Part shown: piece by piece, positions 3,468 through 18,909 of the stretch
Position numbering within the stretch: the stretch's first letter is position 1
Layout: each line of letters starts with the position of its first letter
IMG/VR virus record: IMGVR_UViG_3300043331_000668
Span: 1 to 22,765 of that record
Reading direction: 5' to 3' (one strand)
Source of the DNA: a virus
DNA length: 22,765 nucleotides
Position numbers and translations under genes: made by a program
The notes under the pieces: generated by a model
Database searches by the model: none
What the model was told of the DNA's origin: nothing
Seen by the model: the letters and a program-made list of their open reading frames with translations, nothing else

Positions 3468-3718
3468 ACCGCTCGATCCCCCCAGCCCGAACCCCGCTGG
3501 AGCGGGAACTGGAGCGAATCCAGATTCGCGTCACCCAAGGCGAGCTGGCCGAACTCCACCGCCGGGAGCTCATCGCCCGGCTCTACGAGCAGGGGATGAC
3601 CCAAGTCGAGATCGCCGCCCGCCTGACGAGAGCCGCCAAGCGCGCCGGTGGCAAGGCCGTGGGCGAAGATGCGGTGCAGAAGAACGTGAGGAAGTGGCGG
3701 ATGAAGGGAGCGGCATGA
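3464..3718 (+). CDS. Small helix-turn-helix protein
   Basis: 84 residues from the GTG at 3464, overlapping the previous stop (GTGA). RELIARLYEQGMTQVEIAARL is a textbook helix-turn-helix opening, followed by a basic recognition segment (GEDAVQKNVRKWRMKG). Probably a DNA-binding protein. Position directly before the ParB-like gene (ATGA overlap) suggests a regulator or DNA-targeting partner for the modification genes, which is inference. Confidence 0.72.
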   Translation: MNRSIPPARTPLERELERIQIRVTQGELAELHRRELIARLYEQGMTQVEIAARLTRAAKRAGGKAVGEDAVQKNVRKWRMKGAA

Positions 3719-4350
3719 ACATCGTCCAGCAGGAATTCGATCCCGAAGTCCCGATCGACAAGATCAGCGAGCACCCCAACAATCCACGGCGAGGGGACGA
3801 CGCCGTGGTCGCGCAGAGCATCAAGCACAACGGCTGGTTCGGGGCGGTGTTGATCCAGCGCTCGACGGGGTGGGTGATCGCCGGGAACACGAGGTTCCGG
3901 GTGCTGCGCGACCAGGGGGCCAAGACAATCCCGGCCTTCTGGCTCGACGTCGATGACGCAACGGCCAAGAAGATCATGCTGGTCGACAACCGCAGCTCGG
4001 ACCTGGCGTTCTACGACGACACCGAGCTGTTCGGCTTGCTGCAACAGCTGGTCGAGAGCGACGGCGGGGCGGGCCTGGAAGCGGCAGGCTACGACCGCGC
4101 CGCCTACGAGCTGCTGCTCCAGAGCATCGAGTCGGACACCATCATCGGCGGCATCCGCCAGGGGCTCACCCCCGACGACCGGCTCGACGCGTACAACGAG
4201 CTCGACGTCAGGTCGATCATCCTGCCCTACGGCCCCAACGACTACGAGACCGTCGCCGGTGGGCTGTCCAAGCTGCGCGAGCGGTTCGGCCTCCAGACCA
4301 ACGCCGAAGTCGTCCAGCGCCTCGTCGCCGACGTGTTGACGGCGGTCTAG
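3715..4350 (+). CDS. ParB/sulfiredoxin-fold nuclease-like domain protein
   Basis: 211 residues. The N-terminal half matches the ParB-N fold: PIDKISEHPNNPRRGDDAV, then SIKHNGWFGAVLIQR, WVIAGNTRFRVLRDQGAKTI (GNTRF at residues 57-61 replaces the usual GxHR box), and IMLVDNRSSDLA. The C-terminal part (about 155-211) is a small helical module. The ParB fold is known as a CTPase/nuclease domain and is common in phage genes beside DNA-modifying enzymes. The start ATG overlaps the previous stop and follows AAGGGAG. It precedes the dioxygenase by a TAGTG junction, so it belongs to the same unit. Its exact activity is unknown. Confidence 0.82.
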   Translation: MNIVQQEFDPEVPIDKISEHPNNPRRGDDAVVAQSIKHNGWFGAVLIQRSTGWVIAGNTRFRVLRDQGAKTIPAFWLDVDDATAKKIMLVDNRSSDLAFYDDTELFGLLQQLVESDGGAGLEAAGYDRAAYELLLQSIESDTIIGGIRQGLTPDDRLDAYNELDVRSIILPYGPNDYETVAGGLSKLRERFGLQTNAEVVQRLVADVLTAV

Positions 4351-5360
4351 TGCGCCGCGAGAACACCCCGATCAAACGGCTGGAGCTGGAGCGCCAGGCC
4401 CCACTGGTGCCGTGCGCCTACGCCGAAGGGCATAAGGACCAGTGGGACGGTCGGGTGCTCAGCTGCGGGGAGATGATTCCGTTCAAGCCGCGCCAGCCGT
4501 GCCCTTCCTGTAGTCAGATGCAGATCCGGGCCAATCCCCGCCACCCCACCGAGCGCGACCGCGTGCTCACCGAGGACACCGCCATCGTCGACGCCGCCAC
4601 GGGCGAAGTGGTCGTCGTCTACGTGGTCCCGGCCAGGCACCTCGCCACCCGCTTGGCCAACGCGCTGGCGAAGGTCAGGTTCGAACCGGGTGGGTGGGAC
4701 CGGGACTTCTTCGGCCCCAACGCCAGCACCACCACGCGCCTCAGCGGGGTCGTCGTCACTCACGCCACCTTCGGCTATCAGCCTCCAGCCCCGATGCGCC
4801 GCCGGTGGGCCTGCTGCCGGAGCCAGTTCAACGACCGCAATGCCGAAGCGATGGGCGTGCTCACCGAGTTCTGCCGTCTGGCGGAGCACGTCTTCCGCAT
4901 CCAGGCCCCCGACGTACACGATCGCACCGCCGGGCGGGTCCGTGACCTGATCGCCCCGGCCTGGCTGATCGGGGGCACGCCGTGGACCTCGGGCATCATC
5001 AACCGCACCGCCGCCCTGCCCTATCACCGTGACCAGTCGAACGTCCCCGGCTCCTGGTCGGCGATGCTGGGCTGCCGCCGCGAAGTCGAAGGCGGGATGC
5101 TGCACCTGGCCGACTACAACGTCTACCTTCCCGTCGAGCACGGCAGCATCACGATCCTGGACGGTCAGTCCGTCGTCCACGGGGTCACCCCGCTGCACCT
5201 GGCGGCCAGTCGCGGCTTCCGCTACACGGTCGTCACCTACGCCAAGACGGCGATGAGCAAGTGCGCCGAGGACCCCGCTCACGAACTGCGCCGAGCCCAG
5301 CTGGCCGCCACGATGGCCGAGGAGGCCAAGCGGGACCGTCTCACCGCGGCAGGCCGATGA
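4350..5360 (+). CDS. TET/JBP-family 2-oxoglutarate/Fe(II) dioxygenase
   Basis: 336 residues from the GTG at 4350. The C-terminal half has the full double-stranded beta-helix signature: SGIINRTAALPYHRD (metal ligands H226 and D228), WSAMLGCR, VEGGMLHLADY, GSITILDGQSVVHGVTP (third ligand H277), and FRYTVV with R291 for the 2-oxoglutarate carboxylate. SGIxN before HxD and DGQxxxHGVTP are characteristic of phage TET/JBP enzymes, which oxidise the methyl group of 5-methylcytosine or thymine in DNA. The N-terminus has C22, C39 and CPSC (51-54), a possible zinc site. It is coupled to the transferase (ATGA). The substrate cannot be read from sequence alone. An unrelated 2OG oxygenase is the main alternative but less likely given the neighbours. 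Confidence 0.87.
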   Translation: MRRENTPIKRLELERQAPLVPCAYAEGHKDQWDGRVLSCGEMIPFKPRQPCPSCSQMQIRANPRHPTERDRVLTEDTAIVDAATGEVVVVYVVPARHLATRLANALAKVRFEPGGWDRDFFGPNASTTTRLSGVVVTHATFGYQPPAPMRRRWACCRSQFNDRNAEAMGVLTEFCRLAEHVFRIQAPDVHDRTAGRVRDLIAPAWLIGGTPWTSGIINRTAALPYHRDQSNVPGSWSAMLGCRREVEGGMLHLADYNVYLPVEHGSITILDGQSVVHGVTPLHLAASRGFRYTVVTYAKTAMSKCAEDPAHELRRAQLAATMAEEAKRDRLTAAGR

Positions 5361-6352
5361 CCGACCACTGGCGGCTGTTCAGTGAGTTCTGCCGCTACGA
5401 GAAGGCGGTCGGCGGGCCCAGCGCGCACCTGTGCATGGTCGCCGGGATGAGTCACGGTCTCCCCGTGCACGAGCAGGTGTGGCGGGCGGGCTGCTACGCG
5501 GCGTTCTACAACACGGGCAGCGCGATGGCGCTGTGGAGTCACCTCAGCCACGACGAGGTGCTCGCCAGCAGCGAGGACGAGCTGCGTGACGGGCTCACTG
5601 ACTGCTGGGATGGACTTACCTTCCACCGCCACCGCCGGGCCATCCGCCGCTCGGACAAGCTGGCCCACTACCTGCGCGCCTACGCGCTGCGCTCACGCGA
5701 CTGGCCGGACCGGGACTGGTGGCACGGCGCGCCCTCCCCGGCGAACTACCAAGCCGCCTGGAACGACGTACTTGGCGTGTATGGAGTCGGCCGCTACATC
5801 GCCATCCGCATCCTGGAGCTGTTCTCCCGCTTTGGGGCGGGGACGGCGCTGCACGACATCCGGGCCCGCGACGCGGCATCGCCCCGGCGCACGCTGTCGC
5901 TGCTGTGGCCCCAGCACACCCGCGTATTGTCGACCGACAACAGCTTGGCCGGGGCGGCCAAGTCGGAGTCGATCGCCAACACCACGCTGCGCCGGGTGCG
6001 CGACGAGTGGGGCGTCGAGCTCAATCACTACGAGCTCCAGGTGATGACCTGCGAGTACCACCAGTCGATCGACAACCGCAAGCAGTTCCCCGGCAAGAGC
6101 ATCGACGGCGAGGCCAAGGCACTGCGCGCCGCCGAGCCGTACTGGGGCACGGCGCTGACCGAACCCGGCTGGGGAATGCGGCGGGAGCTGTTCCCCGAGG
6201 TGTCGCTGGGCGAAATCCACGGATGGACCTCCCGTGACGAGCTGGGCGCCGTCGCCGCCGACTACGGGTACACCTGGAGCGACCTGCGCTACGACTACAA
6301 GGCGACGCGCGACCTGGCGCATCCGGCCGTGCGGGAATCCTCACTGGTGTGA
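5357..6352 (+). CDS. aGPT-Pplase-type amino acid:DNA transferase
   Basis: 331 residues from the ATG overlapping the dioxygenase stop. Features of the aGPT-Pplase family (alpha-glutamyl/putrescinyl-thymine pyrophosphorylase, distantly related to HhH DNA glycosylases): an all-helical body, YNTGSAMALWSHLS (51-64), RRAIRRSDKLAHYLRAY (93-109), the hairpin VYGVGRYIAIRILELF (141-156), and TCEYHQSIDNRKQFPGKSID (231-250), which matches the conserved CEY...GKxID box. Known members transfer an amino acid or polyamine onto phosphorylated hydroxymethyl-pyrimidines in phage DNA. The dioxygenase upstream and kinase downstream support this. The acceptor amine is unknown. A helical glycosylase homologue with another role is the alternative. 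Confidence 0.78.
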   Translation: MTDHWRLFSEFCRYEKAVGGPSAHLCMVAGMSHGLPVHEQVWRAGCYAAFYNTGSAMALWSHLSHDEVLASSEDELRDGLTDCWDGLTFHRHRRAIRRSDKLAHYLRAYALRSRDWPDRDWWHGAPSPANYQAAWNDVLGVYGVGRYIAIRILELFSRFGAGTALHDIRARDAASPRRTLSLLWPQHTRVLSTDNSLAGAAKSESIANTTLRRVRDEWGVELNHYELQVMTCEYHQSIDNRKQFPGKSIDGEAKALRAAEPYWGTALTEPGWGMRRELFPEVSLGEIHGWTSRDELGAVAADYGYTWSDLRYDYKATRDLAHPAVRESSLV

Positions 6353-6807
6353 AGACGTTGATGTACGACGTCGGTGAGGGCCGGGTGTTCATGGGCCCGC
6401 AGCTGCTCGACGTCCCCGCCCTGCCCAAGGCGACCGCGATGACCGAGCGGGGCATCACGATGGTGATCAACCTGTGGCATGGGCGTGACGATGCCCTCGC
6501 TGCTGCGGTAGCTGATTACGTCCACGTTCCAGTACCCGACGGCCGAATGAACGATGACAGCTTCGCCCACTACGACGTCCACGCCCGGCTTGCCGCGCGT
6601 GCCGTGGCCAACGGGGGCAGCGTGCTCACTCAATGCCAGGGGGGCCGCAATCGCAGCGGCCTGCTGGCTGGGCTGACGCTGTGCTACTGGCTCGGTATCA
6701 GCGGTAACGAAGCCGTGGCGCGCGTGCGCGCCGGTCGAGGCGGAGTCGCCATCCGCAACCCCCACTTTCAGTCGTGGTTGAAGTCGATCCCGGCGCACGC
6801 GGCATGA
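6349..6807 (+). CDS. Dual-specificity/tyrosine phosphatase-like protein
   Basis: 152 residues from GTG at 6349 (GTGA overlap with the transferase). The CX5R signature loop is present: TQCQGGRNRSGL, with nucleophile C96 and R102 followed by S103. The upstream VPVPDGRMND offers D64 as possible general acid. The order of elements (MTERGITMVINLW, then the acidic loop, then the CX5R loop and a C-terminal helix) is that of compact cysteine-dependent phosphatases. Being sandwiched between transferase and kinase suggests the target is a phosphorylated base, nucleotide or modification enzyme, but this is inference. It could also act on host proteins. Confidence 0.82.
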   Translation: MKTLMYDVGEGRVFMGPQLLDVPALPKATAMTERGITMVINLWHGRDDALAAAVADYVHVPVPDGRMNDDSFAHYDVHARLAARAVANGGSVLTQCQGGRNRSGLLAGLTLCYWLGISGNEAVARVRAGRGGVAIRNPHFQSWLKSIPAHAA

Positions 6808-7340
6808 TCTACTACGCCGTCATCGGCCCCCCCGGGGTGGGCAAGACGACGGCGGTGCAGCGAGCACTCGGCCCACCTACCAGCCAACTTGTGAACCCGG
6901 TTCCGCACTTGATCTACGGCGACGGCGGGCTGATCCAGTTGGGCCGGATCCGCCCGCCGATGAGCGGCACCGACGCCCTCAGCATGTCGATCGCCCCCGC
7001 CGCGCTGGAGTTCCTCCGCGCCGAGCCAGCGCCCAAGGTGGTAGCTGAAGGCGACCGGCTGGCATCGGGCAAGTTCCTCGACGCCGTGGCGAAGTTCGCG
7101 CGGGTGGTGGTCGTGCTCATCGACGCCCCGGCGTGGGAGTGTCGCCAGCGAGCCTCAGCTCGGGGATCGAACCAAGACCCGAGCTGGTTCAAGGGTCGGC
7201 TGACCAAGTTGGATAACCTGATCGCGGAGCGACCGCACGTCAGGATCAGTGGCAGGCAGTCGCCGGTGGGCGTGGCCGTGGACCTCGCCGCGACGCTTGG
7301 CCTACCGGGGCCCCGCGGCCCCGGCCTCGACAGCTTCTGA
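6804..7340 (+). CDS. P-loop kinase, probable 5-hydroxymethylpyrimidine DNA kinase
   Basis: 178 residues from ATG at 6804 (ATGA overlap). Walker A GPPGVGKTT at residues 8-16, then the family-typical MSGTDALSM (53-61), VVAEGDRLASGKF (79-91), LIDAP (105-109) and an Arg-rich lid (CRQRASARG). The GTDxLS and EGDR boxes are what I associate with the hydroxymethyl-uracil/cytosine DNA kinases of hypermodifying phages, which phosphorylate the hydroxymethyl group on DNA. Last gene of the rightward operon. Its 3' end overlaps the convergent gene ending at 7302 by 39 bases. The alternative is a nucleoside or nucleotide kinase. Confidence 0.82.
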   Translation: MIYYAVIGPPGVGKTTAVQRALGPPTSQLVNPVPHLIYGDGGLIQLGRIRPPMSGTDALSMSIAPAALEFLRAEPAPKVVAEGDRLASGKFLDAVAKFARVVVVLIDAPAWECRQRASARGSNQDPSWFKGRLTKLDNLIAERPHVRISGRQSPVGVAVDLAATLGLPGPRGPGLDSF

Positions 7341-7643: not shown

Positions 7644-8039
7644 TCACCGCCCGGGATCACGCCGCTCAATTTCGTCGGCCAGGAGCTGCGCCACCAACCG
7701 CAGGTTCGCCCCGAGCGTTCTGGTCGTCAACCCGCGTTGCGCGTTCAGCTCGTCGCACAGGTCGCGCAGCAGCCGCAGCGCGGCTTCGCGGGTGGGCACC
7801 CCGTCGATCTCGGTGCGCACGAACCCGTCGCGGACAGCATCAAGGCAGGCGTTCCACCCGACCTGCCACTGCGGTGTGCCAACGGTGAGAGGTGGCTCCC
7901 GTGCCAGCATCTGATCGACCCGTCGCCCGAGGGCGAGCCAGCGGTACAGCTGGGCGGCGGGAAACTTCCAGTCCTCGGGCAGCACTTCGTCCAGCTCGTC
8001 GGGCGGCAGCTCCATCGGCTTGTTCCTGGACCCCCTCAC
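7644..8039 (-). CDS. Phage hypothetical protein, helical
   Basis: 131 residues starting at GTG, overlapping the stop of the upstream gene (GTGA). Sequence is helical throughout: AQLYRWLALGRRVDQML, WNACLDAVRDGF, REAALRLLRDLCDELNAQ and LRLVAQLLADEIERR. No Cys cluster and no membrane segment. Family unknown to me; placed within the leftward operon of small accessory genes. Confidence 0.7.
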   Translation of the reverse strand: MRGSRNKPMELPPDELDEVLPEDWKFPAAQLYRWLALGRRVDQMLAREPPLTVGTPQWQVGWNACLDAVRDGFVRTEIDGVPTREAALRLLRDLCDELNAQRGLTTRTLGANLRLVAQLLADEIERRDPGR

Positions 8040-8629
8040 TGGTCCAGCTCACTCGGATCGTCGGGGATGGCGATGATCTCCAGGTCCCTGCCTTGGGCGC
8101 GGAACATCGCCCGTATGTGCATGAACAGGTGGGCGATCGCCTCGGCGTCGTTCTCCCAGGCGTAGGCGACCATCCCCGCCCGGCCCGAGACCGGGTCATC
8201 GAGGAACACCATGCAGCGGTCGGTGTCGAGATGTTCCGGGTGGAGGTCGAAGGTCTTGGTCATGTCGTCGCAGATCCTCGTCAAACGATCCTGAGGTTCC
8301 TCTGAGCGTCGCGGCTCGCCTGAATCGTCCAGCGGTTCTGTGCTCATCGCTGGTGCTTCCAATCCGTCCAATGCGCGCCGTGATCCCTCATCGGTCATCG
8401 GCACGGGGTCACGGAACAATCCCGTTCCGACCACCTTCCAGCCGGGTGGTGGTTCGTGCGGCGGGTCGCAGTCGTCGCCGTAGTAGTGGGTCTGGCCGGG
8501 ATTGCTCGGCGGTTCGGCAACAGAATCAGGTGTCTGCTCGTAGTCGCTGCGATGCCCGTAGCGTTGGCACACGTCAGGGTATTGACCGCACTCGCATCGG
8601 CGGGGAGTGAACGGCGGTTCAGTTCCCAC
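8036..8629 (-). CDS. Hypothetical protein with N-terminal Cys motif
   Basis: 197 residues from the GTG at 8629, chosen because GGGAGG lies 7 bases before it and it overlaps the previous stop by 11 bases. The N-terminus has RCECGQYPDVCQRYGH, a small zinc-knuckle candidate, then a Pro-rich linker (PPHEPPPGWK). The C-terminal part (MTKTFDLHPEHLDTDRC, FLDDPVSGRAGMVAYAW, IAHLFMHIRAMF) looks folded and could be a separate protein beginning at the ATG at 8347. Not recognised. Confidence 0.6.
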   Translation of the reverse strand: MGTEPPFTPRRCECGQYPDVCQRYGHRSDYEQTPDSVAEPPSNPGQTHYYGDDCDPPHEPPPGWKVVGTGLFRDPVPMTDEGSRRALDGLEAPAMSTEPLDDSGEPRRSEEPQDRLTRICDDMTKTFDLHPEHLDTDRCMVFLDDPVSGRAGMVAYAWENDAEAIAHLFMHIRAMFRAQGRDLEIIAIPDDPSELDQ

Positions 8630-12107: not shown

Positions 12108-12176
12108 GCATAGTTCCTTTCGGTTGGGACGGGTCGACCCGTCACTTGACAGCTTAGCCCCGCCGAAGGGCGGGGA
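12108..12176 (-). promoter_or_regulatory. Leader/promoter element with conserved boxes
   Basis: In leftward reading: stem-loop CCCCGCC-CTTC-GGCGGGG (12158-12175), TAAGCT (12151-12156) as candidate -10, GTCAAGTGACG (12140-12150), palindrome ACGGGTCGACCCGT (12129-12142), then CCGAAAGGAAC before the start at 12107. The same order occurs upstream of 14521 and, less completely, of 18856 and 1560. Confidence 0.6.
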
Positions 12177-12220: not shown

Positions 12221-13681
12221 CTAGCTCCCGTTGTTGGCGATGAGCTCGTACTCGGCGTCTCCGTCGAAGTTCCGCACCTCGGTCCCGTGGACGGCCCGCT
12301 TGACGACCGACCCGAGCGCCGTGGTGAGGTCGGTGGTGATCCGCTCCTCGCTGGCCTCCTCCATCAGTCGGTGCTGATCGCGGAGCCCGTCGGCGGCGAG
12401 GCAGATCGCCTCGGTGCCGATGTTCCCGAGCTGCCCATCGTTGAGCGTGATCGCGTAGCGCACGCTGCGATCCAGCACCTCTCGCACGAAGGCGGGCATG
12501 TAGCCCTCGACGTGCATGAACACCTCGTCAAAGTCGGTGTCCGGGTCGAGCGCATCGCCGATCACCCGGCGGGCCAGCTTCTCCACGCCGTCGCGCTCCA
12601 TCTCGCCGACGTGAATCACCGCCCCGATCCGCCCCGGCCGCAGCATCCCCTTGTGGATCTGGTCGGCGTGGTTGGTGGTGAACACGGCAAGGAGCTTCAG
12701 CCCCTTCTGCTTGATCCCGTCGAGCAGGTCCAAGTAGCGCTCGATGGTGTCACCGCTCTGCGGCCCCGCCATCGTGTCCACGTCCTCACCGAACACCACC
12801 GCGGGCTGGTACATGCGAGCCATCTCCAGCGTCACGGTGAGGTTGTCCCGGCCCGGACGGCACATCAAGAACGTCCACCCGTGAGCCACCGCGACTTGGG
12901 CGGTGAGGATCGCGGCGAGGCTCTTGCCCGTGCCGTAGTCCCCTTCGAACAGGACGGCGAACTTGCCCCCCTGGCCCAAGCTGTCGAGCAACTCGGCGTG
13001 CTTGATGAACGCCCACACGTCGCCCTCCAGGCGGCGCTGGACCGAGTCGGTGAAGACCACGTCGAGCGGGTTCACGACCCCCACGTCGATGAACTGCTCC
13101 GCCCCGTCGATGGCCTTGCCCTTGTAGATCGAGTCCGTCTGGAGGTACTTGTCGATCAGCTTGAACAGCCCCTCGATGTGCCAGCGGTACTTCCGCGGCC
13201 CCTCGGCGATGATTTGGAACACCGCCCCCAACTCGGCGTCCTTGGACGCGCCCAGCACGATGGTCATGCCCTTCATCCCGGGGACGCGCATCGCCCCCCA
13301 CGGCACCTGCTCTCGGTCGTCGTCGCCGGGGCCGGTCTTGATATCGACCAGCTGCGGCAACTCCCGCCCGAAGAACGAGTGCAGCGTCTGGCCGAGGGTG
13401 AAGCCGAATGCCTCCCGGATCGCCATCGCCGTGGCGCGGGCCCCGTCGTAGGGCCGGTAGGGGAACGTCCGCACGAAGCGGTGGTCGTTCTCCTCGTCGT
13501 CACGGCGCTGGACCAGGAAGTCGATCGCCCCTGAGAGGTCGACCCGCTCGGGCAGGACGAACTTCGTCCCGGAGAACGTGATGTCCTCCTCCCCGAGCAA
13601 GCGCCCGCCCAATTCGGCGAGGGCGTCAAGGTGCTGGATTTGCAGCTCCTTCATCGCCTGCTTCTGCTTTGCGGTTACCAC
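12221..13681 (-). CDS. AAA+ ATPase
   Basis: 486 residues from the GTG at 13681. Walker A GDYGTGKS (247-254), Walker B VVFGEDVD (295-302), sensor-1 Asn in FTTNHAD (337) and arginine-finger RPGR (348-351) give a classical AAA+ of the CDC48/FtsH-like group. The N-terminal 200 residues carry no domain I can name and may be the substrate or partner domain. Gene starts after the hairpin-plus-GAAAGGAAC leader and overlaps the tail of the previous gene. ATPases of this type remodel proteins or nucleoprotein complexes; the target here is unknown. The lid helices continue to the C-terminus. Confidence 0.88.
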   Translation of the reverse strand: MVTAKQKQAMKELQIQHLDALAELGGRLLGEEDITFSGTKFVLPERVDLSGAIDFLVQRRDDEENDHRFVRTFPYRPYDGARATAMAIREAFGFTLGQTLHSFFGRELPQLVDIKTGPGDDDREQVPWGAMRVPGMKGMTIVLGASKDAELGAVFQIIAEGPRKYRWHIEGLFKLIDKYLQTDSIYKGKAIDGAEQFIDVGVVNPLDVVFTDSVQRRLEGDVWAFIKHAELLDSLGQGGKFAVLFEGDYGTGKSLAAILTAQVAVAHGWTFLMCRPGRDNLTVTLEMARMYQPAVVFGEDVDTMAGPQSGDTIERYLDLLDGIKQKGLKLLAVFTTNHADQIHKGMLRPGRIGAVIHVGEMERDGVEKLARRVIGDALDPDTDFDEVFMHVEGYMPAFVREVLDRSVRYAITLNDGQLGNIGTEAICLAADGLRDQHRLMEEASEERITTDLTTALGSVVKRAVHGTEVRNFDGDAEYELIANNGS

Positions 13682-14141
13682 TTTGGTTGGTTCCTTTCTG
13701 GTTGGTTGTTGGCCCGGCGGGCCATCCCGGCGGGGGCGGAAATGTGCGCCCCCGAAGGGTTCTTGTCGGTGGCTTGCGGCGCCATCCGAGACTTGGCGGG
13801 ACGAAGCTCACGACGTCGGCGGTGGAGAAGCACAACTTGCCCTTCCGTCCGCCGTACATGGTGCCTTTCAGCAGCTTGGCGTGATACCACGCCCGCACGG
13901 TCTTGACATCGACTCCGAAGAAGTCAGCTACCTCCCTGGTGGTGATGCATTGAGTGGAGTTCTGGTGCTGGAGCAGCGCCCGGCGTTCGTTGATCGCCTC
14001 CTGCGGCACGTACCAGCGCTTGTCGTCAGCCTGGGTCCCGGCGAGAAGCCCCATCCGAATCAGCTGGTGGACCCGTTGCCGGGCGATCCCGAGCTGCCGC
14101 ACCGCCTCGGCGATGCTCACGTGCCCGGGCGGCGCGCTCAT
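13626..14141 (-). CDS. Double helix-turn-helix protein
   Basis: 171 residues from ATG at 14141 (ATGA overlap). Two MerR/excisionase-like modules: SIAEAVRQLGIARQRVHQLI with WYVPQEAI (about 9-50), and TTREVADFFGVDVKTVRAWY with LCFSTADVVSF (about 67-113). Each is a helix-turn-helix plus wing. The last 55 residues are Pro/Gly/Arg-rich and read through the leader of the AAA+ gene, overlapping its start by 56 bases. A regulator or recombination directionality factor is plausible; not proven. Confidence 0.76.
   Translation of the reverse strand: MSAPPGHVSIAEAVRQLGIARQRVHQLIRMGLLAGTQADDKRWYVPQEAINERRALLQHQNSTQCITTREVADFFGVDVKTVRAWYHAKLLKGTMYGGRKGKLCFSTADVVSFVPPSLGWRRKPPTRTLRGRTFPPPPGWPAGPTTNQKGTNQSGNRKAEAGDEGAANPAP
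13682..13723 (-). promoter_or_regulatory. AAA+ gene leader with stem-loop and ribosome-binding site
   Basis: Leftward reading gives the stem GGCCCG-C-CGGGCC (13711-13723), AACCAACCAGAAAGGAACC, then the GTG at 13681. This lies inside the coding region of the upstream gene. Confidence 0.5.
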
Positions 14142-14521
14142 CCCTCGACACGCTCCCGAGAGTTCAGCGTGACATCGACCCGGTGGATGTCACCAGGCTC
14201 CAGCTCGGAGACCTGGAGGTCTCCACGAAGCTGCTCGGTCGCGTTCTCGATCGCGTCTGTGGTGGCCTCGATGACGACCTTGTATTCGATCCTCCACCGC
14301 GCCCAGCACGGCTGGAGGTGGGCATCGGAGCACCGGGCGTTCACATCGTCGACGAACGCTCGGTAGTCCTCACACCACCCCCGATCCCCGGCCTCGCTCT
14401 TGAGTGCCTCGGCGATGATGCGGATATCGTTCTTCAGCACCTCGATCGTCAGCTTCGCCACGTCGAGCTGGTGCACCACGTCGGTGTGCTCGGTGATAGC
14501 TAGGTCCTGATCAAGCGTCAT
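14138..14521 (-). CDS. Actinophage hypothetical protein, helical
   Basis: 127 residues from ATG at 14521, preceded by ACGAAAGGAACAGGA. Contains HQLDVAKLTIEVLKNDIRI (coiled-coil-like), GWCEDYRAFVDDVN and WRIEYKVVIEATTDA, resembling small proteins found in other actinophages whose function is unknown to me. Ends in ATGA overlap with the double HTH gene. First gene of a three-gene unit with the ATPase. Confidence 0.72.
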   Translation of the reverse strand: MTLDQDLAITEHTDVVHQLDVAKLTIEVLKNDIRIIAEALKSEAGDRGWCEDYRAFVDDVNARCSDAHLQPCWARWRIEYKVVIEATTDAIENATEQLRGDLQVSELEPGDIHRVDVTLNSRERVEG

Positions 14522-14590
14522 TCCTGTTCCTTTCGTTCTAGCCGCCCCCAGCGGGCCGTCACTTGACAGCTTACTACCGCCGAGGGGCGG
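14522..14590 (-). promoter_or_regulatory. Leader/promoter element for the 14521 gene
   Basis: Leftward reading: CCGCC-CCTC-GGCGG stem (14577-14581 with 14586-14590), AGTAAGCT (box TAAGCT 14568-14573), GTCAAGTGACG (14557-14567), a short GCCC/GGGC stem, and GAAAGGAAC. Nearly the same as the leader at 12108-12176. The core AGCTGTCAAGTGACGG is identical in both. Confidence 0.6.
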
Positions 14591-15026
14591 GGGTTTCTTC
14601 GGTTACTGCCCGCCTTGCCCCGCGGCGCCCTGCGATCCGTAACGGACGAAGCGTTGCCCTGCCTGCCGTGCCGCGCCTCACCGCTACGGTCCAAGCCCGG
14701 CCTTGCTGCGCCTTCCCGTCGTGCCCGCCCTGCCGCGCCTATCTGTCCTGGACGCGCGCGAACTGGCCGTGCCTGCCCTGCCGGGACATACCAAGCCACA
14801 CCGGACGGTTCCATCCGTGCCCGGCCTTGCCCGCCCCGCCTCGCCGAGAACTGCCACGACACACCCGACCGAACCGCGCCAAGCACCCCAAACCGCGCCC
14901 GCCTTGCCGAGCTGAGCAGTGCGAAGAAACCGGAGCCGCGCCAAGCACCGCCCGCCTTGCCGGACCACGCCTTGCCCCACAGGGCCACCGATGCCGTGCC
15001 TCCGCCCGCCGTGCCTTGATGCGACG

Positions 15027-15159
15027 CACCCAGCTGAATGCTGCCGGACCCAGCCCTCCGTGCGATGCCCAGCCCGCCTTGCCCAGCCCGGCCTTGCTAC
15101 ACATGCAGCACCCAGCTGAAACATGCCGGACCCAGCCCAGCCCGCCTTGCCCAGCCCGG
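15027..15159. repeat. Imperfect tandem duplication inside the C-rich block
   Basis: CACCCAGCTGAA at 15027-15038 recurs at 15109-15120 (82 bases apart), and AGCCCGCCTTGCCCAGCCC at 15071 recurs at 15139 (68 apart, so 14 bases were lost or gained). GCCGGACCCAGCCC is also repeated at 82 bases. Confidence 0.75.
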
Positions 15160-16034
15160 TCGCGCTGCCCACGCCGAACTTAGCCTTGCCCGCCTTGCCT
15201 GGCCTTGCCACCGCTGACTCGCCCAGCCGAGCTCTCCGGAACCAGCGCTGCCCTGCCTGCCTGGCCTGGCCCTGCCCCGTCATCCGTGTCGGACCCCGCC
15301 ACGCTGCGCCTGCCTGGCCTTGCCTTGACCAGCAGCACCTTCCACGCCAGACCCGGCGATGCCGTGCCTGCCATGCCCTGCTGAGCCTCGTGCAGCCAAT
15401 CGGACCGAGCCACGCCTGCCGTGCCTGCGCCGTGCCGGGTCGAGCGCCGCCGGACCCATCCATCCGAGCCCCACTTGCCTGCCGGGCCTTGCTGCCCCCG
15501 CCAAACGTCCCTTGACCAGCCGGACCTGCCTGGCCGAACGCTGCCGTAAATGCAGTACCGAGTCGAGCCGCGCCCAGGTGAGCCTTGCCCGCCGTACCTG
15601 ACCTTGCCCATCCATCCGGGCCTTGCCCGCCGCGCCCTGCACAACCGGGCAATCCGTACCCGGCCAAGCCTTGCGCTGCCTGCCGGGCGGTGCCGGGCCA
15701 ATCCACTCCTCGCCCTGCCGCCAACCTGCCGGGCCCCGCCTGCCTGGCCATGACTAGCCGGACGCAGCCACACCGTCAACACCTCGCCCCGTCTTGCCCG
15801 CCTGACCGAGCCCCGCGCGACCGTGCATTGCCGCTCGCACCACGCCTTGCCTGCCTGGCCCGGCCCCACCTTGACCAACACTCCGGTCCTTGCCATGCGC
15901 TGCCTGCCTCACCTGACCTCGCCCAGCCACGCCCGACCAAACGACACGATGCGCAGCCCCGCCCGCCTTGCCGCACAAGACGAAACCCACCAGGCCCGAA
16001 CATGCCCAGCCTTGCCCGCCTTGCCGCGCCGGAC

Positions 16035-16080
16035 CGCGTGTAGCCGCGCCCTGCCACGGCTGGACGCGTGTAGCCGCGCC
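16035..16080. repeat. 30-base tandem repeat inside the C-rich block
   Basis: CGCGTGTAGCCGCGCC at 16035-16050 recurs at 16065-16080, exactly 30 bases later. Confidence 0.7.
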
Positions 16081-16862
16081 TGCCTGGCCGTGCCGAGCGA
16101 TCGAAGCCGCCCAAGCGAAGTGGACCTGGCCTTGCCTGCCCCGCCAAACCGTTCCGCGCCAAGCGATCCGTGTAGAGCCACGCCGCGCCCGCCCCGCCAC
16201 ACCTGGCCGGACCCTGCGGTGGTGCCCATACCAAGCCTTGCCCGCCGAGCCGCGCCTTCGATGCCTGAACCAGCCGCCCTGGCCGACCCGAGCCAAGCCT
16301 GCCCAGCGATGCCTTGCGGCGACGAGCTCTGCGAAGTCGACCAAGCCGTTGCGAACCTGGCCTTGCCTGCCTCGCCGGGCTAAGCGTTGCCGGGACGTGA
16401 CGGACGACGCCAAGCCACGATCGCCGTGCCCGCCATGCCAGACCAAGCGGTGCCTTCCCGCACCGTTCCACGCCCGGCCTTGCCAGCCGAACCATGCCGC
16501 GCTATCCGTACTGAGCAAAGCCGGGACCAACCGGGCGATGCCGAGATGAACCGAGGTGGGCCCTGCCTGCCCAGCCGCACCATGAGCGACGTGCGAACGT
16601 AGACCTGCCATACCTGCCACACGGAACCCGGCCACAACGTGCGTAAACAGGCGTAGCCCTGCCCGCCGCGCCCAACCTCGCCTCCCTGGCCTGTCGATGC
16701 CTGGCCCGCCTTGCCAGGCCGGGCGGAGCACAACCTGGCCCGACCACACCCAGCGCTCCTTGCTGCCCTTGCTGCCCGTGCTGGGCCATACCTGCCTTGC
16801 CGTGACGTGCGTTGCCGTGCATCGTCCTTGCCACGCCCCACCGTCCATGCCATGCCTGACCG

Positions 16863-17063
16863 TCATGGCACCTCCCGCCTTACGTAGATGCCGCTGATGG
16901 TCGGCTCCGAGCAGGCGTAGCAAGCCTCCACCTTTGGTTCGCGCAGGCGAATCGGAATCCGCACGCTGACGAGCGAGCGGGTGACGCCATCTTCCGACGT
17001 CACCCACTCGCCCGTCTCGTCGAGCCAGCAGCGTTCACAGATGGGAACGCTCTGCCACGCCAT
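16863..17063 (-). CDS. Actinophage zinc-knuckle protein
   Basis: 66 residues. ICERCW near the N-terminus and CYACSEPTISGIYVR near the C-terminus give two CxxC knuckles around a beta-like middle (RSLVSVRIPIRL). This pattern is common in actinophage genomes. It is the last gene of its leftward unit; downstream in its direction the 2.27 kb C-rich block begins immediately, with no hairpin terminator visible between. Confidence 0.78.
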   Translation of the reverse strand: MAWQSVPICERCWLDETGEWVTSEDGVTRSLVSVRIPIRLREPKVEACYACSEPTISGIYVRREVP

Positions 17064-17066
17064 CGT

Positions 17067-17516
17067 TCAGGCCGTCTCGCCCGCGGCGTCCCGCTCGACG
17101 GCGGCGAGGGCTTCCGCCTCCGTCCGCAGCAGGTCGATGAACTCATTCATCATGTGGTAGCGGGACTTGAACGTCGCCCACTCTCGGCGCATCTGCTGGA
17201 GGATGACCTCCCGGGCAACCGGGTTCTCCAGCACCACTTCGGTCTCGTCGTAGACCGAGGGGCGTTCGGCGGCAGGATCGCGGGTGAACGCCCGGACCTT
17301 GCCGCTCTCCCCCGAGGGCCTGACGAACCTGATCTTCACCGACCGGATCAGATTGGCCGCCTCGGCCAACCGCCACTTGGCGGCGGCCTCGGTGTTGTCC
17401 CAGGTGAAGCGGTTGTGCAGTGGATGCTCCGGGTGTTCTGCCGCCCGCACGACGTTCTCCGGGGTGAGCAACCCGAACTCCTCGCGGATGGCGAGGAGTT
17501 CGTCCCGCAGGCTCAT
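17067..17516 (-). CDS. Actinophage hypothetical protein
   Basis: 149 residues, ATGA overlap with the upstream gene. The opening MSLRDELLAIREEFG, then HPLHNRFTWDNTEAAAKWRL and later REWATFKSRYHMMNEF, is a layout I have seen in many actinophage proteins of unknown function located in DNA-metabolism regions. The middle (SVKIRFV, KVRAFTRD) is beta-like, the rest helical. Its pairing with the 17513 gene suggests joint work in recombination or DNA handling, which is inference. Confidence 0.76.
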   Translation of the reverse strand: MSLRDELLAIREEFGLLTPENVVRAAEHPEHPLHNRFTWDNTEAAAKWRLAEAANLIRSVKIRFVRPSGESGKVRAFTRDPAAERPSVYDETEVVLENPVAREVILQQMRREWATFKSRYHMMNEFIDLLRTEAEALAAVERDAAGETA

Positions 17517-18205
17517 CGCTCACCCCGCTCGATGTCGATGTCCTTGGACTCGTCGATGGTGTAGGTGCCGAAGTCGCCCTTGCGCTCCGGCCGCCACTCC
17601 CCGACGCCCACGCCCATACCACCGGCGTCGACCAGGCTCAGCACGGACTCCCGGCTGAGACACGAGCTGACGAAGGTGATCTTCAGCACGGCGTCCCACG
17701 GCCAGAACTCCGCCCGATAGCGGAGGTCGGCGGAGCGTGATGCCCCGGCCAGCCGGACGTAGTCCTCGCGCATCTTGGGCTGGCCGTCGATTGGCACCAA
17801 GGGCTGGTCGGTGTTGTCGGCCATCTCCCCGGTGAACCAGAGGAACTGGCGCAGCTCGGTCATCTTGACGTCCTTGCCGTAGAAGCGAGCCGCCGCCACC
17901 GTGGCCGACTTGAAGGCCACGGCCGGGAAGCCGAAGCCCTCGCCCAGCCGGTACATGCTGGCCTCGTACTCCTCCTCGGGGTTGCGGATCTCCTTGGGGG
18001 AGCGCCGCCCCTGTTGGGCGTCGAGCATCTTGCGCTTGGCCTTCTCGCTGAAGCGCGACATGATCAGCGGCGTCGTCCCGAGGATCGGGACGTACAGCGT
18101 CTCACTCGCGATCTTGGCGATGTGGATCTGGGGCGTTTCCGGGGTCTCCGGGGTTGCCGTGCTGGTTTCTTCTTCTGGAGTTGCATCTGGCTTCTTCGTA
18201 GCCAC
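17513..18205 (-). CDS. Phage protein with glycine-rich RAMP-like C-terminus
   Basis: 230 residues from GTG at 18205, set by GAAAGGAACCGCACG. After a Thr/Glu/Pro-rich tail (1-25) comes LGTTPLIMSRFSEKAKRKM (42-60), PEEEYEASMYR (76-86), FGFPAVAFKSATVAAAR (91-107), PLVPIDGQPKMREDYVRL (135-152), ADLRYRAEFWPW (159-170), and DAGGMGVGVGEWRPERKGDF (193-212). I know this as a widespread phage protein without firm function. The FPxxxFK box and Gly-rich loop resemble RAMP/Cas7-type RNA-recognition folds; single-strand binding or annealing is another idea. Both are inference. Confidence 0.75.
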   Translation of the reverse strand: MATKKPDATPEEETSTATPETPETPQIHIAKIASETLYVPILGTTPLIMSRFSEKAKRKMLDAQQGRRSPKEIRNPEEEYEASMYRLGEGFGFPAVAFKSATVAAARFYGKDVKMTELRQFLWFTGEMADNTDQPLVPIDGQPKMREDYVRLAGASRSADLRYRAEFWPWDAVLKITFVSSCLSRESVLSLVDAGGMGVGVGEWRPERKGDFGTYTIDESKDIDIERGER

Positions 18206-18356
18206 CGTGCGGTTCCTTTCTGGTTGTGATGTGACGTCCCGAACTCGCCCCCGGACGGCGCTCACGGAGCCGCCCGGGGGAGAGGACCTCCCAGGGGATG
18301 ACAGCAGCGGCGAGCATGGTGCCGCTGGGTTTGACCTGGGCATCGGGGTGGTCCCC
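18206..18356 (-). promoter_or_regulatory. Leader with 12-base hairpin
   Basis: A gap of 151 bases without a convincing gene. CCCCCGGACGGC (18248-18259) pairs with GCCGCCCGGGGG (18269-18280) with one mismatch and a 9-base loop, followed in leftward reading by GACGTCACATCACAACCAGAAAGGAACC and the GTG at 18205. Could act as terminator of the upstream gene or as regulatory leader. Confidence 0.5.
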
Positions 18357-18560
18357 TTACGCCTGCCGCTGGATGTACCAGCGGACGTAGACGAAGTCAT
18401 CCGCGAGCCGCTGGACTCGGTGGACGACGACAACATTTGGATCGGGGTGCTCGGGCCATGTGCCCGAGTCCTCGATAGCCGCCAATTCCTCGGCGGTCAG
18501 GCGGTAGATACCCGCCTCGTCACGGTCGATGGCGGCCAGCTCTTCGGGCGAGAAGTCCAT
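18357..18560 (-). CDS. Small acidic hypothetical protein
   Basis: 67 residues from the ATG overlapping the upstream stop. It has two similar short segments, SPEELAAIDRDEAGIY and TAEELAAIEDSGTW, which look like an internal duplication of an EELAAI helix, then NVVVVHRVQRLADDFVYVRWY. Function unknown. Confidence 0.68.
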   Translation of the reverse strand: MDFSPEELAAIDRDEAGIYRLTAEELAAIEDSGTWPEHPDPNVVVVHRVQRLADDFVYVRWYIQRQA

Positions 18561-18856
18561 CAGACCTCCGCCCCGTCGGTTGGCTTGCGCTTCAAGCGCC
18601 GAGGCTTCTGACCAGACCGCTTAGGCCCCTCCGGCTCGGGCAGGCCGTCGCGCCGCCCGGGCTTGGCCGCCCCACCGCCCCGCTCGTACAGCAGCCGGTC
18701 GCGCTCGGCCGCCTCCAGCCGCCGGGCCTGGTCGATGCCGCTGAGCAGCGCCGTGGAGGTCTGCTCCAGCCAGTACGGCTTCAGCGCGGCCTCCTCGGCT
18801 GGGCTCGTCACTGGGGCGTGTTCCCCGACGAGCGTGACCCACTTCTTCCTTGCCAT
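18560..18856 (-). CDS. Small basic hypothetical protein
   Basis: 98 residues from the ATG at 18856 (leader GGAAAGGAACTACGGAG). The N-terminus is MARKKWVTLVGEH, the middle helical (GIDQARRLEAAERDRLLYE), and the C-terminus strongly basic (GPKRSGQKPRRLKRKP), fitting nucleic-acid binding. First gene after a promoter-like leader. Confidence 0.7.
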   Translation of the reverse strand: MARKKWVTLVGEHAPVTSPAEEAALKPYWLEQTSTALLSGIDQARRLEAAERDRLLYERGGGAAKPGRRDGLPEPEGPKRSGQKPRRLKRKPTDGAEV

Positions 18857-18909
18857 CTCCGTAGTTCCTTTCCGTTCCCGCCCCGTGCGGGGCGTCACTT
18901 GACGTTACA
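18857..18909 (-). promoter_or_regulatory. Leader/promoter element
   Basis: Leftward: GTGTAAC, GTCAAGTGACG (18893-18903), stem CGCCCC-GCAC-GGGGCG (18879-18894) and GGAAAGGAAC. Third copy of the GTCAAGTGACG element found at 12140 and 14557. Confidence 0.55.

Follow-up and report, generated by a model that had tools for sequence, protein, structure and literature searches.

According to a proposal made in 2026, CRISPR may descend from Viral Interference Programmable Repeat (VIPR) systems (bioRxiv 2026.04.26.720920; PMC13142463). VIPR systems combine a RAMP protein with RNAs of 9–16 YNNGG repeats, in which DNA is recognised by the NN bases, with one target base skipped per step, and fall into seven types, some with "staggered arrays with overlapping vrRNAs"; the published accessory genes are vap1–6 (PMC13142463). 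Type II, from Escherichia phage SUSP1 and a P. fulva prophage, is the kind studied in depth, and its RNAs carry an invariant 3' tail with a conserved structure (PMC13142463). A keyword search of the literature for other descriptions besides PMC13142463 found none.

Here we examine a linear virus sequence record of 22,765 bases (the window, that is, the whole stretch of DNA that was analysed), in which a C-rich block is flanked by gene-packed regions. We interpret this block, with a probability of about 0.93, as the putative guide RNA (vrRNA) array belonging to the VIPR system of an actinobacterial phage: judging from the sequence, a gene for a Vipr-family RAMP protein, a candidate accessory gene and then about 40 units on the same strand would make up a single VIPR locus, with the following components.

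17513–18205, minus strand: vipr gene (RAMP family, phrog_4652), 230 aa, with a likely GTG start and AGAAAGGA upstream; the longest ORF starts at 18436.
17067–17516, minus strand: candidate vipr-accessory gene (phrog_15946).
16863–17063, minus strand: small Cys-rich ORF of 66 aa between the accessory gene and the array, zinc-ribbon-like by eye, without a family match.
14606–16861, minus strand: predicted vrRNA (guide) array, 467 GGY-NN steps in about 41 units by the GGC-A/G rule.

The block at 14591–16862 (2,272 bases) contains 1000 C and 620 G. The initial annotation, made from the letters alone, had described gene-packed surroundings, a small gene on the right-hand side (the Cys-rich ORF), 33 copies of CCTTGC on the plus strand and a strong strand asymmetry, all of which hold: CCTTGC occurs exactly 33 times and its reverse complement not once, GCC outnumbers GGC on the plus strand 242 to 42, and GCCTTGC is present in 28 copies, where Markov shuffles have 1.4 on average. 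The further description of GCC every 4–5 bases applies to 132 of the 241 successive GCC intervals (5 nt in 96 and 4 nt in 36), most of the others being near-multiples, and misses the strict periodicity of the block. The Fourier spectrum has one sharp peak at 4.83 nt (power 59), which is coherent, lying at 4.805–4.84 nt in every quarter of the block, and the CC periodicity is maintained along its entire length; in the window stretch preceding the block, the only peak is a codon-like one at 2.995. The tandem-repeat search that had been suggested recovered short degenerate arrays only, and near-identical direct repeats with spacers, the criterion for a CRISPR array, are absent, the units being variable throughout.

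The assignment of the vipr gene relies on a profile of 68 homologs, all of which also match phrog_4652; against 36pp_D, the solved Vipr protein of SUSP1, this profile gives an E value of 5.5e-41, and the window protein alone reaches only 0.0071 against 36pp. The predicted structure of the window protein (pLDDT 95.4) has a Csm3/Cas7-like fold: each of the 35 Foldseek rows with E ≤ 0.001 is a RAMP protein from a CRISPR complex, with VIA Z scores of up to 11.2 in a list that is a re-ranking of the Foldseek rows only. Its C end contains a conserved AG..xGxGDxRP..G..GxF motif, which we read as a putative glycine-rich loop (G-loop). The phrog_15946 gene is located downstream of vipr, on the same strand, in 63 of the 63 loci that contain both, and is present in 36 of 37 relatives; because of this constant place, it is likely to be an accessory gene. 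The predicted fold of its product had no match in the PDB at E ≤ 0.001.

Elsewhere in the window, an AAA ATPase gene (PF00004, phrog_10440) and a gene for an HTH_17 protein come after the array on the same strand (12221–14141, minus); the ATPase weakly matches IetA of the Ietas defence model. At 3694–7340, on the plus strand, genes for a ParB-like protein, a Tet_JBP oxygenase (PF12851, 4350–5360), a dual-specificity-phosphatase-like protein and a P-loop nucleotide kinase (PF18751) follow in a row that looks like a DNA-base hypermodification cassette.

The comparison with phage DNA that the initial annotation had proposed yielded a 68% match of the block to Mycobacterium phage Donkeykong, where a comparable block lies next to homologs of two window ORFs, 17513–18436 and 17067–17516. 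When IMG/VR was scanned for six GCCNN units, at least 120 stretches were returned; among the matches listed, 111 of the 122 sources contained an array by the spectral test, and 83 of the 122 a homolog of the first ORF (phrog_4652). A fair test of the link is provided by 37 relatives (54–69% identity) that were fetched by the Vipr protein alone, blind to arrays. A GGYNN array is found near vipr in 36 of these 37, on the strand of vipr in 35, the exceptions being locus L133, without an array, and L154, with the array on the opposite strand (loci are designated here by L and a number). Across 119 vipr loci, many of which had been retrieved through their arrays, the best array is on the vipr strand in 114, on the opposite strand in three (L031, L055 and L154) and absent in two, and it lies downstream of vipr in 89 and upstream in 28. 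In L106, L016 and L054, a RusA-type resolvase, by our reading by eye, is encoded beside the array.

A dynamic-programming parse running down from position 16861 divides the array into 467 steps, with a spacer of 2 nt in 382, 1 nt in 82 and 3 nt in 3; GGY is conserved and NN variable across the steps. On the plus strand there are 36 GCC-N-GCC cores at spacings of 38–110 nt (mode 53), of which 35 could be aligned with full flanks, and the RNA-sense core is GGC-A/G-GGC in all but one. In this clade, punctuation takes the form of a 4-nt step, usually GGC-A before GGY, which accounts for 408 of the 651 4-nt steps in the relatives. By the GGC-A/G rule, the window array comprises 41 units, of which 36 have six steps or more; unit length, measured by punctuation and not by RNA ends, is mostly 9–13 steps (roughly 8–13). 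No constant element or 3' tail was detected around the unit boundaries in the window, and RNA folding of seven 141-nt stretches was no better than that of shuffles (z −0.8 to 1.1). As parsed from the sequence, this is a new design: about 40 units without a tail, with GGC-A/G-GGY as their punctuation. In two other loci (L095, 1956–3546, and L106, 4354–5152), conserved non-pentad elements break the arrays every 100–200 nt, unlike in the window; these are other array designs of the same system.

If the system operates as described for SUSP1 in the preprint, the array would be transcribed on the minus strand, Vipr subunits would oligomerise on the guide RNA, the NN pairs would base-pair with double-stranded DNA, with one target base skipped per step, and binding of the Vipr–RNA complex would repress transcription of the target. 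Guide sharing suggests, in addition, that steps having lost or gained one nucleotide would be read by their last two bases.

The guides were compared among 146 loci, after three near-duplicates had been dropped. At least six identical consecutive NN are shared by 33 array pairs, compared to 0–5 in ten shuffles, and at least seven by 12 pairs, compared to none; in 16 of the 33 pairs, the triplets agree in under half of the steps (0.40 being expected by chance). One window stretch differs from L151 and L152 solely by GGAT where those loci have GGY-AT. When a 4-nt step is read as GG plus its final two bases, the window unit at 15421–15475 shares nine NN with L134, L151 and L152, at triplet identities of 0.11–0.33, and the double-length unit at 14957–15074 shares eight with L135 and L152, whereas three shuffles under the same rule yielded no sharing of eight or more. 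Since this rule came from guide sharing, it was set before any target was known. By these comparisons, the NN pairs are the apparent carriers of the message, and GGY is the scaffold.

To decode the message, arrays on the vipr strand only were used, and low-complexity guides and runs of more than 40 pentads were dropped, leaving 824 guides. With one base skipped, there were 52 matches among the loci at a score of at least 15, compared to 15, 19 and 21 for skips of 0, 2 and 3, respectively, and 14–29 for shuffled guides; at a score of at least 16, skip 3 equals skip 1 (11 each), which we suspect to be due to unmasked array remnants. The base skipped in the matched genes is the codon wobble position, so that guides read codon positions 1 and 2 and allow for synonymous change. 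In L146, one unit fits vipr in 18 other loci, and in L130 one unit fits it in five others, but neither fits the vipr gene of its own locus; read from the sequences, this is apparent VIPR-against-VIPR targeting in actinophages. A minus-strand guide of L091, opposite to the vipr homolog of that locus, also fits the vipr genes of other loci (21/22 bases in L054) and had been removed by the filter of the skip comparison.

Several window units read antisense to recognisable protein motifs.

15685–15740, minus strand: Walker A-like unit, weak, antisense to GVG[KN]TSLALGP.
15531–15589, minus strand: DEAH-like unit, weak, antisense to ..LV[CW]V[DE][DE]A[HQ].
15421–15475, minus strand: unit GG TC AT TG CC GG TC CC AC CA AC, antisense to VCVGDPGQIDP of a plasmid-borne ATPase gene.
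15195–15257, minus strand: HELGH-type unit, antisense to ..T[CW]S[HQ][DE]LG[HQ]LL.
15079–15142, minus strand: HEIGH-type unit, antisense to [HQ]R[FL]T[CW]A[HQ][DE][IM]G[HQ], with 0 matches in 118 genomes.
14957–15074, minus strand: double-length unit, its first part antisense to AA[HQ][DE]LG[HQ]LV.

A pattern composed of the shared guide of the 15421–15475 unit and two NN from L134 and L152 was searched in 148 actinobacterial genomes at up to two mismatches and hit 24 sites in 21 genomes, every one with exactly one mismatch, compared to 0 for the reversed pattern. Ten of these loci were read, and in each the guide is antisense and codon-phased to LFVGDPGQLDP of an ATPase. Plasmid homologs of this gene revealed a second allele: by the published 1-nt skip, the window unit fits the gene WP_041814197.1 of Rhodococcus erythropolis plasmid pREL1 at 22/22. 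Among nine plasmid homologs besides pREL1, the fit is 22/22 in four, 21 in two and 18–19 in three. On Streptomyces-type alleles, the window guide scores 19/22 and the L152-type guide 23/24, so that two guide alleles track two target alleles. Both the 22/22 fit and the exact shared guides span a 4-nt and a 6-nt step (the last-two-bases rule was extended to the 6-nt step while the target was being read). We infer from these alignments a feature that is new for VIPR, namely that 4- and 6-nt steps hold the register and only their final two bases count.

The target gene in pREL1 (Pfam AAA_30) sits behind genes for an AAA_3-like ATPase, a DUF2201/VWA protein and an unknown protein. Among plasmid records, 55 contain a homolog, and 31 of these are from Rhodococcus; none were found in phage records. 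On a Streptomyces plasmid, the homolog directly precedes DUF3375, DUF4194 and SbcC/MukB-like genes, which we take to be the Wadjet set, and the helicase-like part of the ATPase is distantly similar to the anti-phage models MkoA and PLuB, far below the NCBIfam cut-off; our guess is that the ATPase belongs to a defence cassette. From the matches between guides and genes, the window phage probably uses the array against rival mobile DNA; the opponents that we infer are plasmids (or the cassette on them) and ImmA-type regulators of rivals.

The latter come from the HExGH metalloprotease motif, which is read antisense in three window units (mean of 0.003 in 2,000 shuffles); the shuffle means for motif counts are post hoc because the motifs had been seen before counting. 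An HExGH consensus, built mainly from sister guides, matched 5 of 98 genomes at up to three mismatches, compared to 0 for the control, and four of the five matches read HRFTAAHELGHL, in proteins of 399–426 aa that we recognised as ImmA/IrrE-like. The match of the Walker A unit, in 3 of 118 genomes at two mismatches, is weak, and the Walker A and DEAH readings involve one unit each, with the motifs picked after the fact. The double-length unit at 14957–15074 fits L193 at 21/22, but a related pattern had served to retrieve this locus, which makes the result partly circular. For most of the 36 decoded units, the 1.9 Mb scanned contained no target above chance (L181, L185 and L186 score low because one strand only was scanned), and exact 9-pentad scans of viral contigs with three window guides gave 0 matches each. 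A Streptomyces prophage guide, searched in two genomes, one of them its own, had only 3-mismatch matches, and the reversed control had more; in 392 genomes it had one 1-mismatch match, judged to be chance. We do not claim as targets the six matches of the W2 consensus in viral contigs (five ParB-like, in contigs of 41–43% GC, and one ImmA-like, all named by eye) or the single match of the W1 scan, in a long protein of a 39-kb contig.

We consider, at roughly even odds, that the array is a motif-seeking arsenal. Because a guide reads the first two codon bases only, guides would settle on codons of catalytic motifs (VGDPGQ of AAA_30, HExGH of ImmA/IrrE-like proteases, Walker A and DEAH), and a single guide could then act on all members of a protein family, even where synonymous changes and some amino-acid changes have accumulated. 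Its opponents would not be restricted to phages but would extend to plasmids and possibly to a defence cassette of a plasmid or of the host (AAA_3, VWA, unknown, AAA_30), and the complex would tolerate 4- and 6-nt steps. Such tolerance, if real, would be a flexibility absent from the main text of PMC13142463.

The parse also bears on whether the array still works. The scaffold is weak in mid-unit, with GGY at 30–59% at steps 3–7 from the boundary, and some window units may therefore be eroded or mis-parsed; relatives have GGY at 63–86% and fewer 4-nt steps than the 82 in the window. A degraded array, homologous to working ones and drifting, would look like this, but the shared guides and the 22/22 fit cross a 4-nt and a 6-nt step, so these steps have not destroyed the message, and the CC periodicity is kept over the whole block; we regard degradation as unlikely. 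It is considerably less probable that the array is a protein-binding RNA scaffold or sponge, with its GGY triplets coated by Vipr or a different oligomer and its NN free of information. The triplet plus two-base spacer geometry with its coherent 4.83-nt period and the RAMP-fold partner would suit such an element, yet unrelated arrays have runs of NN, not triplets, in common, and one unit fits a plasmid gene at 22/22 in codon phase.

The block is non-coding. Long open frames do cross it, stop codons being rare there, and in Donkeykong (L004) a frame of this kind, gp48 (7954–8340), is annotated as a "hypothetical protein" although it spans a VIPR array and is probably not a gene; but none of the 10 ORFs inside the block matched Pfam, in line with the earlier statement that no plausible protein is encoded, and a period of 4.83 nt, which is not a multiple of 3, runs through all frames, so that a repetitive protein-coding gene on either strand can be practically discounted. 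Rfam covariance models did not match the block at E ≤ 1; outside it, P10 at 181–249 scored 29.3 bits, below the gathering score of 37. A replication origin or DNA-structural element with iterons, to which the strong local GC skew and the core motifs spaced 38–110 nt might point, is scarcely credible, as the cumulative skew, the check put forward in the initial annotation, has no turning point beyond the bias of the block itself, and the near-constant link with vipr, the shared guides and the gene matches would be left unexplained.

Assembly artefact was rejected as well: scaffold and guides recur in many independent contigs, and the same architecture is present in isolates (Donkeykong, L161), which also bears out the view that a long non-coding block is kept by selection. 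That selected, non-coding interpretation stands, although it came with no function, partner or code, the vipr gene (17513–18205) lying beyond the stretch that it described. The promoter-like leader proposed for the left border is not supported, as there are 0 sigma-70-like promoters in 14000–18600. A stretch of 36–42 bases of this leader (14521–14590) recurs at 12139–12175 and 18864–18903 with 84–89% identity, before other minus-strand genes, and is probably a shared 5' leader with a ribosome-binding site.

In actinobacterial phages, VIPR appears to follow a different design, with a large bank of guides that lack a tail and carry messages that can be decoded from sequence alone. The locus provides an independent, purely comparative test of the 1-nt-skip rule, with guides shared at NN only and targets in codon phase, adds a plasmid gene to the prey of VIPR and points to a rule of frame tolerance. 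A GGYNN period near 4.9 nt beside phrog_4652 is a simple way to find and decode such banks in metagenomes.

Compared to type II VIPR, the window system is alike in its Vipr-family RAMP protein, the GGY/NN tandem repeats on the vipr strand, the location in a virus, the small neighbouring gene, the decoding by a 1-nt skip that falls on the wobble base (here by computation) and the targeting of other mobile elements, other vipr genes included. Type II has four RNAs, whereas the window has about 40 guides in one continuous array, without a constant tail, with GGC-A/G-GGY punctuation and frequent 4-nt steps, and with a plasmid gene as a target; given the missing tail and RNA that folds no better than shuffles, we do not file it as type II. 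With the Csm3/Cas7 backbone of class 1 CRISPR-Cas it shares the fold of the RNA-binding subunit (Z 11.2) and the idea of an RNA-guided filament, but it has no identical repeats or spacers, no cas genes were seen, and the guide is broken every two bases. TRAP coats (G/U)AG-NN RNA repeats, and here, too, a triplet plus two-base spacer would be read by an oligomer; in the window, by contrast, the triplet is GGY, the arrays are far longer and the spacer bases appear to hold the message.
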